From NCBI GenBank assembly GCA_022826245.1, contig JAJDVG010000006.1:5001-69000 (forward strand): a DNA stretch of 64,000 bases, in the 5' to 3' direction. The position numbers and the translations under genes are program-made. Below the pieces are notes generated by a model that was not told the DNA's origin, searched no databases, and saw only the letters and a program-made list of their open reading frames with translations. The DNA is from Gammaproteobacteria bacterium. GTDB taxonomy: Bacteria; Pseudomonadota; Gammaproteobacteria; Steroidobacterales; Rariloculaceae. Of the stretch, positions 12,308-64,000 are shown piece after piece (position 1 is the stretch's first letter; each line of letters begins with the position of its first letter).

Positions 12308-15004
12308 ATGAGTCGCGCGTCCCGGTCCGGGAGACTGGCCGTACGCGTTGCGGCGATGCGGCTCGCTGTAGCGGCGGCGCTCGCCTGCGCGTTGCCGCTT
12401 GCGGCCGCCGAGGCGCAGACGCGCGTCGCCGAAATCCGCGAGGGGACCAATATGGCGATTGCCCTCTCGCCGGACGGCGCGACGCTCGTCACGGATCTGC
12501 TCGGCGGGCTCTGGAGCATGCCGGTCAGCGGCGGCGCCGCCACGCCGCTGATACCGGTGCGCGAAGGAGTACACCATCCGCGTTTCGATCCCGGCGGCGG
12601 AACGATCGTCTACCAGAAGCTCGCCGACGGACAGTGGGACCTTTGGTCGTTCGATGTCGCCTCGGGCCGTCAGACGCAGTTGACGGACACGCGCTACGAC
12701 GAACGCGAACCGGCCTTCAGCGCCGACGGCCGGGCGGTCGTCTTCGCAGCCAACCCGGACGGTCGATTCAGCCTCTGGTCGTTGACGCTCGCGACGGGTG
12801 AACTCGCCCGGTTGACCGACGAACCGGGCGACAACAGTTTTCCGGTCGTCTCCGATACCGGCGAACTCGTCTATGTCAATCGCCGCGGCGGCCAGTGGAC
12901 ATTGCGGCTGTTCCGCCCGGGAGGGCGAGGCGCGGAACTCGTTCGCGGCGGCAACGCGCTGAGCGCGCCGAGCTGGCGGCCCGGAGGAAGCGTGTTCGTC
13001 TACAACGAGCGCGACCGCCGCGGCAGGAGCGCGCTGAAGCTCATGGTGATCGCCGAGGAGTTCGTCATCAAGACGCTGGTCCAGGGCGAGGACATCTTCG
13101 CGACCCGGGCCGTGTGGATCTCGCCGGCCGAGTACGCTTATACGGCCGACGGACGGATCTGGCGCCGCGGTATCGCCCGGATCGCGCGCGATCCGGTGCA
13201 TCTCTTCGCCGGGGTCGCCGTCGACATCGCTCCGCGCGCACTTGTCGTCGACAGGCTCGACAGGCCCGGGCCGCACGCCGCCGCGGGGCTTGCAGGCGTT
13301 GCCGCCGGGGCGCAGGGTCGGCGCCGGGCGTTCACGGCGCTCGGCGATCTGTGGCTCGCGGAGCGGCGCAACCTGCGGCGGCTGACCGACGATCCCTGGG
13401 TCGAGACCGATCCGGATTTCACACCTGACGGCGGCACGCTCGTGTTCGCAAGCGACCGCGGCGGAACGATGGCGCTTTGGCGCCTGGAGCTGGCGACCGG
13501 CGCCGCCTCGCAACTGACGCGCGAGCCGGGCAAGGCTTTCTTGCCCTCGATCGATCCGACGGGCCGCTACGTCGCGTACCTGCACACCGACGGCTTCGGA
13601 TCGTGGGCGCCGAGCACGCTCAGGATCGCGGCTCTCGATGCGGACGGTGAGACGAGGACGATCGCCGCTGGGCTGCGCGATGTTGCCGAACTCGACTGGA
13701 CCTACAGCGACGGCGCCTGGCGGATCGACGCCAGCATGCGACCGCGCGGACCGGGCGAACGGCGTCTGACATCGAGTTTCGATACGGGTGTAAGCGGCGG
13801 CACGGCGCGCGAACGCCGGCAGCGCCGCGAGCCTGCGCCCGCCGATCTGCCGCGACTTGCGGGCGGTCTGCCCGAATGGTCGCCGAGCGCGCCGGACGCT
13901 CCGTACGTCGTGCAGGCGGGGCGCGTGTTCGACGGCATCCGCAACGAGTATCGCTACAACGTCGATGTGCACGTTGCCGGTCAAAGGATCACGGCGGTCG
14001 TCACGCGGGGAATGGAGCCGCTCCCCGCCAGAGTCATCGACGCGCGCGACCATACCGTCATTCCCGGGCTCATCGACGTCCATGTCCACCAGTCCTCGCT
14101 GAGCGGCGAACGCCTCGGCCGCATCTGGCTCGCGCACGGCGTGACGACCGTCCGTGAGCTGACCGGCGATGTCGCGGCGGCGCTCGAGCGCGCCGAATCG
14201 TGGGCCAGCGGGCGCCGCCTCGGGCCGCGCCTGATCGTTTCCCCCGAACTCGATGCGCCGGCTGGCGAAGCGGTCGCGGCGGCGCCATCACCGATCGTCG
14301 TCAGGTCGTACTCAGGCCTCGCCGACGGCGTCGCCCACGGCCTCGGCCGATTGCGGCAACAGCTCGGTACCGCCGCACCGCCCGCGCGTCCCGCGATTGC
14401 CGTGCTCGAGTCGATCGCGCGTCCCCGCGTCGCACGCTCAGCCCACGGGCTGACCCTGTCGCCACTGAATCGCAGCTATCAGGATTCATTCGGCACCGTG
14501 CTCGCGTCAGGCACCTTCGTCAGTTCTTCCCTGGCTGCGCTTGCCGGCAGCAGCTTATCGAGTGGCGCGACGTCCCGCGGTGTGCTCGAGCGGCTCTACA
14601 GCAGTGCGGAACTGCGTCGCTGGACAAACATGTCCGAAGCCGTCGGGCCTGCGGCGCTGCGTGCGATGCAGAACACCGTAGCCCGGCTCGTGCGCAACGG
14701 CGGCCGCGTACCGATCGGCAGCGACGCGCCGGTCGTGCCGTACGGCCACGGAGTGCACATGGAACTGGAGATGCTCGTCGACGCCGGAATCGCGCCGGCT
14801 CAGGCGCTCAGGCTCGCCACGGCGCAGGGCGCTCAGGCGCTCGGCCTCGACCTCCAACTCGGGACACTCGAGCAGGGCAAGCTCGCCGACTTCCTCGTCA
14901 TCGACGGCAACCCGCTCGAGCGGATCGCCGACACGCGATCGTTGGTGGCGGTCGTCAAGGGCGGTGTGTGGCATGCGCACGGAGAATTGCTCGAACGACC
15001 CTAA
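12308..15004 (+). CDS. Exported TolB-like propeller fused to an amidohydrolase
   Basis: 898 residues. A signal peptide (RLAVAAALACALPLAAAEAQ) is followed by WD40/PD40-type TolB repeats (about residues 35-470; for example FDPGGGTIVYQKLADGQWDLWSFDVASG, FTPDGGTLVFASDRGGTMALWRLELATG). A C-terminal amidohydrolase domain starts with VIPGLIDVHVHQS and ends with GSDAPVVPYGHGVHMELEMLVDAGI and GKLADFLVIDGNPLERI. HxH, a likely later His (SAHGLTLSP) and the final Asp are seen. The segment that usually holds the lysine and Glu-rich metal region reads VVRSYSGL and looks shortened, so activity is uncertain. Substrate unknown. ATG 12356 is an alternative start. Confidence 0.75.
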   Translation: MSRASRSGRLAVRVAAMRLAVAAALACALPLAAAEAQTRVAEIREGTNMAIALSPDGATLVTDLLGGLWSMPVSGGAATPLIPVREGVHHPRFDPGGGTIVYQKLADGQWDLWSFDVASGRQTQLTDTRYDEREPAFSADGRAVVFAANPDGRFSLWSLTLATGELARLTDEPGDNSFPVVSDTGELVYVNRRGGQWTLRLFRPGGRGAELVRGGNALSAPSWRPGGSVFVYNERDRRGRSALKLMVIAEEFVIKTLVQGEDIFATRAVWISPAEYAYTADGRIWRRGIARIARDPVHLFAGVAVDIAPRALVVDRLDRPGPHAAAGLAGVAAGAQGRRRAFTALGDLWLAERRNLRRLTDDPWVETDPDFTPDGGTLVFASDRGGTMALWRLELATGAASQLTREPGKAFLPSIDPTGRYVAYLHTDGFGSWAPSTLRIAALDADGETRTIAAGLRDVAELDWTYSDGAWRIDASMRPRGPGERRLTSSFDTGVSGGTARERRQRREPAPADLPRLAGGLPEWSPSAPDAPYVVQAGRVFDGIRNEYRYNVDVHVAGQRITAVVTRGMEPLPARVIDARDHTVIPGLIDVHVHQSSLSGERLGRIWLAHGVTTVRELTGDVAAALERAESWASGRRLGPRLIVSPELDAPAGEAVAAAPSPIVVRSYSGLADGVAHGLGRLRQQLGTAAPPARPAIAVLESIARPRVARSAHGLTLSPLNRSYQDSFGTVLASGTFVSSSLAALAGSSLSSGATSRGVLERLYSSAELRRWTNMSEAVGPAALRAMQNTVARLVRNGGRVPIGSDAPVVPYGHGVHMELEMLVDAGIAPAQALRLATAQGAQALGLDLQLGTLEQGKLADFLVIDGNPLERIADTRSLVAVVKGGVWHAHGELLERP

Positions 15005-15063
15005 CCTGCAGGATCGGAAGCCTGCGCAGCCTTTAAAATCAATAAGATATATCAATCATGAGA

Positions 15064-15085: not shown

Positions 15086-15163
15086 GTAAGCATCATGGCC
15101 GGAAAATCGTTCCTGCAGTCGGCCGCGAATCGGTGCAGACTTCGAGGTATAGCTTATAAACAT

Positions 15164-15190
15164 TTGAATTTAAATAAATTATCTGATAAT
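15164..15190 (+). promoter_or_regulatory. Candidate sigma-70 promoter in AT-rich island
   Basis: TTGAAT (15164-15169), a short 15-bp spacer and GATAAT (15185-15190), within a 15-bp palindrome. Reads towards the candidate small RNA and its terminator. The short spacer and the general AT richness make this only a possibility. Confidence 0.3.
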
Positions 15191-15246
15191 TCCGGGACTG
15201 TTTCACGATTCGCCTGGCCCCGAAACTCACGCCTTGCAACGCGCGC

Positions 15247-15261
15247 CGGCAAAAAACGTGC
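15247..15261 (+). promoter_or_regulatory. Possible sigma-54 (-24/-12) element
   Basis: CGGCA with GG at 15248-15249, exactly ten bases, then GC at 15260-15261 inside GTGC. This has the obligatory GG-N10-GC spacing and partial TGGCA/TTGC matches. It would start transcription near 15273. Such matches arise often by chance in GC-rich DNA, so this is weak on its own; it is noted because the Pseudomonas CrcZ RNAs are sigma-54 transcribed. Confidence 0.25.
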
Positions 15262-15272
15262 GCATTGGTGCA

Positions 15273-15473
15273 AGGTTCTGGTAGATTTGGGGATGAGCAC
15301 AAGAACAAGAGAGAACAAGAAGCAGAAAGGAAACCGGCTGCACCAACAAAAAGACAATCGCTCGTTGCGCGAAAGCGGGGCGAGTCGCAGCCAGGCCGCA
15401 TACTTGAAACCGTAAACTCCAATAAAAACAAGTGAAGTGCCTGACCCGGCGTTCCCACCGCCGGGTTTTCTTT
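15273..15473 (+). ncRNA. Candidate CrcZ-like Hfq-binding small RNA
   Basis: About 200 nt with no coding potential. Four AAnAAnAA motifs are present: AAGAACAA (15301), AACAAGAA (15314), AACAAAAA (15345) and AATAAAAA (15421), all in predicted unpaired stretches. Between them CCGGCTGC (15334-15341) can pair with GCAGCC-A-GG (15387-15395), enclosing a hairpin at 15361-15384 with a GAAA tetraloop (CTCGTTGCGC/GCGGGGCGAG with one mismatch). The RNA ends in an intrinsic terminator. AAnAAnAA (CA) motifs are the known Hfq/Crc target of Pseudomonas CrcZ/CrcY. The 5' end is a guess and depends on which promoter is used. Motifs, structure and terminator are seen; function is inference. Confidence 0.5.
15445..15473 (+). 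terminator. Rho-independent terminator
   Basis: CCCGGCG (15445-15451), a 7-nt loop and CGCCGGG (15459-15465) form a perfect 7-bp GC stem followed directly by TTTTCTTT. The T run exists only on the + strand. The nearest + strand gene ends 440 bases upstream, so the terminator implies a separate transcript in this gap. Confidence 0.85.
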
Positions 15474-15493
15474 GTACGCCCGGAATTCGCGCG

Positions 15494-16054
15494 TCAGTCC
15501 ACGCCGCCGGCCAGCAGCCGTTCGAGGCGCGACCAGTCGAACGAGGGGCCCGGATCGGTCTTGCGGCCCGGCGCGATGTCGCAGTGCCCGACGATTTCGG
15601 CAGCGCCCAGACTCGGCCACGTTCGCCTGAGCGCGCCGATGAGTTCGGCGAGCGCGCGGTACTGGGCGCGGGCGTAGGGGATGTCATCGGCGCCTTCAAG
15701 CTCGATGCCCACGGAGAAGTCGTTGCACCATTCACGCCCGCGATGGACCGACTCGCCCGCATGCCAGGCCCGATCGGTAAACGCCACATACTGCGTCAGC
15801 TCGCCGCCGCGCGAAATGAGTACATGAGCCGACACGCGCAGATCGCACACGGTCGCGAAATAGGGATGCCGGTCCGCCGGCAGCTCGTTCGCGAACAGCC
15901 TGTCGATCCAGGGCCCGCCGAACTCGCCCGGCGGCAGGCTGATGCCGTGCACGACGATGAGCTCGAGTTCGCAGCCCGGCGGCCGGGCGTCGCAGTTCGG
16001 CGACGGGACCCGGTCGACGCCGTCAATCCAGCCGCTGTCGCGATCGATGATCAA
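15494..16054 (-). CDS. ampD: 1,6-anhydro-N-acetylmuramyl-L-alanine amidase
   Basis: Cytoplasmic zinc amidase that cleaves the peptide from anhydro-muropeptides during cell-wall recycling; loss of AmpD classically derepresses AmpC beta-lactamase. The 186 residues match AmpD. Zinc ligands are seen in ELIVVHGISLPPGEFGG (first His), ERAWHAGES-like AWHAGESVHRGREWCNDFSVGIELEG and VGHCDIAPGRKTDPGPSFDW (last His and Asp). No signal peptide, which favours AmpD over periplasmic AmiD. It works on products related to the AnmK substrate. No ampE or ampR is adjacent. Confidence 0.94.
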   Translation of the reverse strand: MIIDRDSGWIDGVDRVPSPNCDARPPGCELELIVVHGISLPPGEFGGPWIDRLFANELPADRHPYFATVCDLRVSAHVLISRGGELTQYVAFTDRAWHAGESVHRGREWCNDFSVGIELEGADDIPYARAQYRALAELIGALRRTWPSLGAAEIVGHCDIAPGRKTDPGPSFDWSRLERLLAGGVD

Positions 16055-63427: not shown

Positions 63428-64000
63428 CCGAAGCTGAGCAGCGCCCGCAGCACGAAGAGACCATCATCGCGGTCAAGCCCGGCTTCGGCGCCGCGAAACG
63501 CAAGTCCGCGCGGCCGGATCAGGTCCAACGAAGGCTGCCGTGGCTCGGCATCGCCGCCGCGGGATTGCTCGCACTTGCCGCCGCCGTGTTCTTCGTGTTG
63601 CCGAGCTGGGTCGAGGAACGCTCCGCGAGCGCGCCCGTCGCGGCGCCGCCCGTCGTCGAAGCACCGGAGCCAGCGGGACCTGTCCTGAGCGAAGAAGAAT
63701 ACGCGGCGCTCCGGGAACAGGCCGAATCGCTGCTCGCCGATGTCCTGGCCCAGAAAGCGCGGCTCGAAGAGTTGTCGGCGCCTGTCTGGGGCGCGGATGA
63801 ATGGCTGCGTTACGACGCAACCGCACGCGCCGGCGATGACGCGCTGCTCGACGACGCCGTACAAGCGGCTGTAGCGGCTTACGAGGAAGCGCTCGCTGTC
63901 GGCGAAGGCTTGCTCGGGCGCTCGGACGAGATCATGGGCACGGCACTGGACAATGGCCGGCAGGCGCTCGAGGCCGGCAATCCCGAACTTGCGATCGAGC
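63424..64000 (+). CDS. Membrane-anchored protein, partial, possible formylglycine-generating-enzyme family
   Basis: Only the first 192 codons are present. GTG 63424 overlaps the kinase stop. A charged cytoplasmic N-terminus (TEAEQRPQHEETIIAVKPGFGAAKRKSARP) precedes a single membrane helix (LPWLGIAAAGLLALAAAVFFVLPSW) and a periplasmic helical region (LSEEEYAALREQAESLLADVLAQKARLEEL...). In similar kinase operons such proteins carry TPR-like helices and a C-terminal SUMF1/FGE domain, but that part lies beyond the window and this identity is inference. Confidence 0.6.
   Translation, partial: MTEAEQRPQHEETIIAVKPGFGAAKRKSARPDQVQRRLPWLGIAAAGLLALAAAVFFVLPSWVEERSASAPVAAPPVVEAPEPAGPVLSEEEYAALREQAESLLADVLAQKARLEELSAPVWGADEWLRYDATARAGDDALLDDAVQAAVAAYEEALAVGEGLLGRSDEIMGTALDNGRQALEAGNPELAIE

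Follow-up and report, generated by a model that had tools for sequence, protein, structure and literature searches.

The 64,000-nucleotide window (the whole stretch of DNA that was analyzed) contains a stretch that an earlier note proposed as a CrcZ-like Hfq sponge, possibly outside Pseudomonadaceae. In the CbrAB-CrcZ switch, Hfq is titrated by an RNA that depends on sigma-54. This switch has been described as unique to Pseudomonadaceae (PMC8871633), Crc has been called Pseudomonad-specific (PMC9890229), and our literature search, with most subscription papers outside its reach, returned no CrcZ-like RNA elsewhere. Does this locus, then, encode a small RNA, and would that RNA act on Hfq as CrcZ does? 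Our reading, to which we assign a probability of about 0.6, is that it encodes a small non-coding RNA that would bind Hfq via A-A-N repeats and sequester it, CrcZ-like but belonging to a separate family.

The small RNA and its locus

The stretch is gene-free, as the earlier note had it: upstream, a PD40/amidohydrolase gene stops at 15004, and downstream lies an ampD-type amidase gene (15494-16054) convergent with the small RNA. The window's family, the Ca. Rariloculus group of Gammaproteobacteria, comprised 22 genomes, and blastn with positions 15200-15480 found the RNA in 18 of them, counting the window's own; all 17 genomes from other families of the same order were without a hit. A model of the 3' core recovered the identical 18 genomes. 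The remaining four include small or incomplete ones, and absence from them is only partly shown. Named records bearing the core are metagenome-assembled bacteria, among them Candidatus Rariloculus versatilis. Across the class (369 genomes), the core search matched the window genome alone. A weak second core hit within G004 (24 bits) was dismissed as unconvincing. The relatives keep the phase of the AAN tracts as well as the core, and the claim of a small RNA outside Pseudomonadaceae is borne out.

The elements run 5' to 3' as promoter, AAN tract, P1 (enclosing an A-rich strand and a hairpin), core, second AAN tract, and terminator (Table 1). The closing helix P1 has the consensus GGCTGY with RCAGCC, in which all scored cells pair and two pairs show two-sided changes; no shuffle reached the covariation score of the structure, and sliding P1 by 1 to 3 columns destroys its pairing. 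No part of the RNA is more strongly conserved than the core, which the consensus structure leaves mostly single-stranded. The terminator stem, ACCCGGCG-N7-CGCCGGGT, is followed by a T tract running to 15473; the perfect 7-bp stem described earlier is present, reaching 8 bp when an outer A-U pair is counted, and the GAAA hairpin and the four AAnAAnAA sites also lie where they had been placed.

Table 1. Coordinates of predicted features in the window
Feature	Positions	Strand	Remarks
-35-like element TGCGCA, inferred promoter	15259-15264	+	TGCG..-N17-TARATT spacing in most of 18 members
Extended -10, TCTGGTAGATT	15277-15287	+	TCTGKTARATT in 17/18 members, TCTGATATAGT in the remaining one
Small RNA	15295-15473	+	~180 nt; 5' end predicted
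5' AAN tract AAGAACAAGAGAGAACAAGAAG, candidate Hfq distal-face site	15301-15322	+	AAN phase kept, third base varies
Closing helix P1, 5' arm GGCTGC	15336-15341	+	covariation
AACAAAAA, candidate Hfq site within P1 domain	15345-15352	+	
GAAA-tetraloop hairpin	15359-15384	+	sequence unconserved; hairpin predicted here in 17/18 members
Closing helix P1, 3' arm GCAGCC	15387-15392	+	covariation
Ultraconserved core AGGCCGCATACTTGAAACCGTAAACTCC, 28 nt	15393-15420	+	sequence alignment
3' AAN tract AATAAAAACAAG, candidate Hfq site	15421-15432	+	GATAACAAYAAnAA in relatives
Intrinsic terminator	15444-15473	+	8-bp stem, T tract, conserved

A short protein gene is one competing reading of this stretch, and a 106-amino-acid frame (15095-15415) is open in the window. 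The frame has a stop in L003, however, its start is absent in L002 and L003, it has no Pfam match, and the changes among relatives follow base pairing. With the frame broken in same-genus relatives and without a Pfam match, we rejected a protein gene as having next to no chance of being correct. Conservation, covariation, promoter, and terminator, together with the lack of a conserved reading frame, strongly support a small RNA, and we conclude from these sequence features that 15295-15473 encodes a conserved small RNA whose transcription is predicted. No match in Rfam 15 reached the gathering score, and a lax threshold gave nothing relevant. The RNA is a new family, missing from Rfam 15, and one that is probably Hfq-binding and most likely Hfq-sequestering.

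Promoters and a candidate enhancer element

Positions 15259-15287 form a conserved, predicted sigma-70-like promoter with an extended -10, still present in the window's genus and expected to start transcription at about 15294-15296. A weak sigma-54 candidate, GG-N10-GC at 15248-15261, had also been proposed; it agrees with 7 of 12 scored consensus positions and is lost in two same-genus relatives, and we discarded it as unconserved in the window's genus. Further upstream, 15023-15047 of the window holds TGCGCAGCCTTTAAAATCAATAAGATA, which looks like an IHF site and is conserved across most of the family.

Elsewhere in the family, the sigma-54 consensus TGGCAYN5TTGC is found in 7 of the 18 members, 87 to 89 nt upstream of the conserved TTCTGKTA (TTCTGTTA), and a count over both strands of the family loci, 110 kb in all, gives seven sigma-54 consensus sites, every one at -87 to -89. 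In these members (L004, L005, L006, L007, L010, L014, and L016), a leader ACAGAA just upstream of TTCTGTTA can pair with TTCTGT, a sequence that overlaps the second promoter's extended -10.

Across the order, a sigma-54 site followed after 75 to 105 nt by an AAN run occurs in 123 of 396 genomes, and the same pattern read backward occurs in none of the 396. Most of the matches belong to f6 and f15, two families that each have a leader sequence of their own; in f10, a large family, there are hardly any. Across the class, the pattern is found in 34 of 369 genomes, including two f6/f15 genomes and the f89 pair; the remaining matches, only a few of which were inspected, have mostly the look of coding sequence or of isolated chance occurrences. 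Weak core matches had also pointed to f15, where the sigma-54 promoter is present in all five loci. In both f6 and f15 the AAN tracts and sigma-54 control are retained, and the core survives only in traces. These families share a locus with the window's family: amidohydrolase and/or pdxH on the upstream side and cob(I)alamin adenosyltransferase and/or ampD on the downstream side; f15, like the window, also has tyrA close by. On the strength of this shared locus we regard the RNAs of the three families as orthologous; in sequence they resemble each other only weakly.

The element GTCGR-N6-TTACA precedes the sigma-54 site in 6 of 7 loci in the window's family (f1), 9 of 10 in f6, and 20 of 26 in f15, nearly always at a distance of 89 to 95 nt (three f15 matches are farther). 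It occurs in 1.8% of shuffled sequences and in none of the 11 family members that lack the sigma-54 site, the window included. The element was discovered and counted on one sequence set, which makes these counts descriptive and no test; its constant distance and its joint absence with the sigma-54 site are the stronger points. An enhancer-binding protein may bind at this element. GTTAC/GTAAC, a CbrB-like motif, lies upstream of all seven f1 members with a sigma-54 site, but because it is patchy in f6 and f15, it was not taken as the common enhancer. The window's genus has neither the sigma-54 promoter nor the upstream element and has kept the sigma-70-like promoter, so that its RNA may be constitutive or otherwise controlled.

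Family f4 (G024) has a similarly designed but shorter sequence, made up of a sigma-54 site, AAN runs, and a terminator, at about 1500-1720 of the reverse complement of L108, with GTCGG-N6-TTACA at -80. Outside the window's order, the f89 loci L181 (G597) and L182 (G111) carry a sigma-54 site, TGGCACAGCC[AG]TTGCA, ~5.0 kb into the locus and downstream of ruvC-ruvA-like genes. It is closely followed by an AAN-rich stretch of ~300 nt that contains hairpins and repeated units, possibly another CrcZ-like RNA; one of the two loci was compared with Rfam and gave no match.

AAN repeats, Hfq, and comparison with known RNAs

The motif AANAANAA (AAnAAnAA) occurs seven times on the two strands of the window, and five of these copies lie within 131 nt (15301-15431), starting at 15301, 15314, 15345, 15421, and 15424; overlap between the final pair reduces these to four sites. 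The other copies are at 63692 on the + strand and 56879 on the - strand. Dinucleotide shuffles of the RNA hold 0.61 motifs on average and five or more in 0.3% of cases, and the clustering is far above chance. The motifs are also mostly unpaired in the predicted fold (0.62-0.99), in agreement with their earlier assignment to single strands. Each of 36 orthologs has 4 to 16 motifs (shuffle means, 0.3 to 1.9), and the Pseudomonas CrcZ control has 11 in 396 nt. The several (A-R-N)n repeats with n ≥ 4 that mark CrcZ are represented by three runs in the window RNA, one to five in the orthologs, and five in the CrcZ control; six (A-R-N)n repeats are given for P. aeruginosa CrcZ (PMC4063720). The third base of the AAN runs is nearly free across the 36 orthologs (G, 159; T, 148; C, 138; A, 82), as expected if these runs are read by the distal face of Hfq, which reads A-R-N (PMC9890229).

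Of the 22 family genomes, 20 have hfq and all 22 have rpoN, and the genome search for hfq shows that the window genome's Hfq retains the distal-face residues Y25, G29, I30, K31, L32, Q52, and T61. In the mechanism we propose, the ~180-nt RNA would bind Hfq by tandem A-A-N repeats, and Hfq held in this way would be sequestered from A-rich mRNA leaders. Relatives in two other families and in part of the window's own would transcribe it from a sigma-54 promoter, with GTCGR-N6-TTACA as the candidate enhancer element for an activator, and the sigma-70-like promoter would remain in the window's genus. Transcription, Hfq binding, sequestration, and any link to a nutrient signal are all what we infer from these features.

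The likeness to the CrcZ/CrcY/CrcX RNAs of Pseudomonas and Azotobacter lies in single-stranded A-R-N/AAN repeats, the sigma-54 promoter of the relatives (the 7 of 18 family members, f6, and f15), a terminator, and a genome that also carries hfq and rpoN. This shared design could reflect a common ancestor, with the new RNA a distant and rearranged CrcZ homologue. The CrcZ covariance model (RF01675; gathering score, 95 bits), however, has no match in the window or the window genome, yet the identical search finds a Pseudomonas-type CrcZ in G199, our positive control, at 306.8 bits. The new RNA is also about half the length of CrcZ (180-230 nt versus ~400 nt) and has its own conserved core, closing helix, and upstream element, and it lies in an amidohydrolase-RNA-ampD locus, whereas the CrcZ gene is downstream of cbrB and activated by CbrAB. 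Unlike CrcZ, the window copy has no sigma-54 promoter, and it has fewer ARN runs. The genome search for cbrAB did not find CbrA or CbrB among the matches examined: those listed for CbrA in the 22 family genomes covered the kinase half only, and CbrB-like ones turned out to be of NtrC, PilR, or other types, so CbrA/CbrB was rejected as the activator. The mismatch to the model, the other locus, the other upstream element, and the lack of CbrA/CbrB among the matches examined speak against membership in RF01675, and we consider shared ancestry with CrcZ most unlikely. What survives of the sponge proposal is its CrcZ-like design, favored by the conserved AAN repeats, the free third base, the intact Hfq distal face, and the relatives' sigma-54 promoters; its tie to CrcZ itself finds no backing from the model or from CbrA/CbrB.

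The strongest rival takes the RNA to be an Hfq-dependent base-pairing sRNA whose AAN tracts dock on the distal face and whose single-stranded core pairs with mRNAs. Class II sRNAs such as ChiX and MgrR combine A-R-N motifs for the distal face with a U-tract terminator, and the new RNA resembles them in both respects. ARN tracts are present in ordinary Hfq-dependent sRNAs too, which counts against sequestration, and the strong conservation and exposure of the core are what pairing with targets would lead one to find. Set against this, f6 and f15 have held on to the AAN tracts and sigma-54 control with mere traces of the core, and the several AAN tracts spread throughout the RNA exceed what docking needs. 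We regard base pairing through the core as possible rather than likely, and it could hold together with Hfq sequestration; a pure sponge would have no need of the 28-nt ultraconserved core, whose presence hints at some additional function. The proposed sequestration of a global RNA-binding protein by a repeated short motif also has a parallel in RsmY/RsmZ, decoy RNAs that sequester RsmA/CsrA; these use GGA in hairpin loops, whereas the new RNA uses AAN and its presumed partner is Hfq.

Possible implications for regulation outside Pseudomonas

The comparison suggests that regulation of the CrcZ kind exists well outside Pseudomonas. In its fullest form, the proposal is of an Hfq-sequestering RNA under sigma-54 control that has no sequence relationship to CrcZ, answers to an enhancer-binding protein, and occurs in three or more families of a single gammaproteobacterial order; this would be a second, independently built Hfq-titration switch outside Pseudomonadaceae, whose control in the window's genus has passed to a sigma-70-like promoter. 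We see the case for this wider picture as evenly balanced. If true, a global post-transcriptional switch would be more general than described, with the same design recurring at one conserved locus across three or more families of a different order. The RNA also adds a family that Rfam 15 lacks. The families that carry the RNA are known here mostly from metagenome assemblies, and the defined promoter and upstream element would offer a handle for seeking its regulator and signal.
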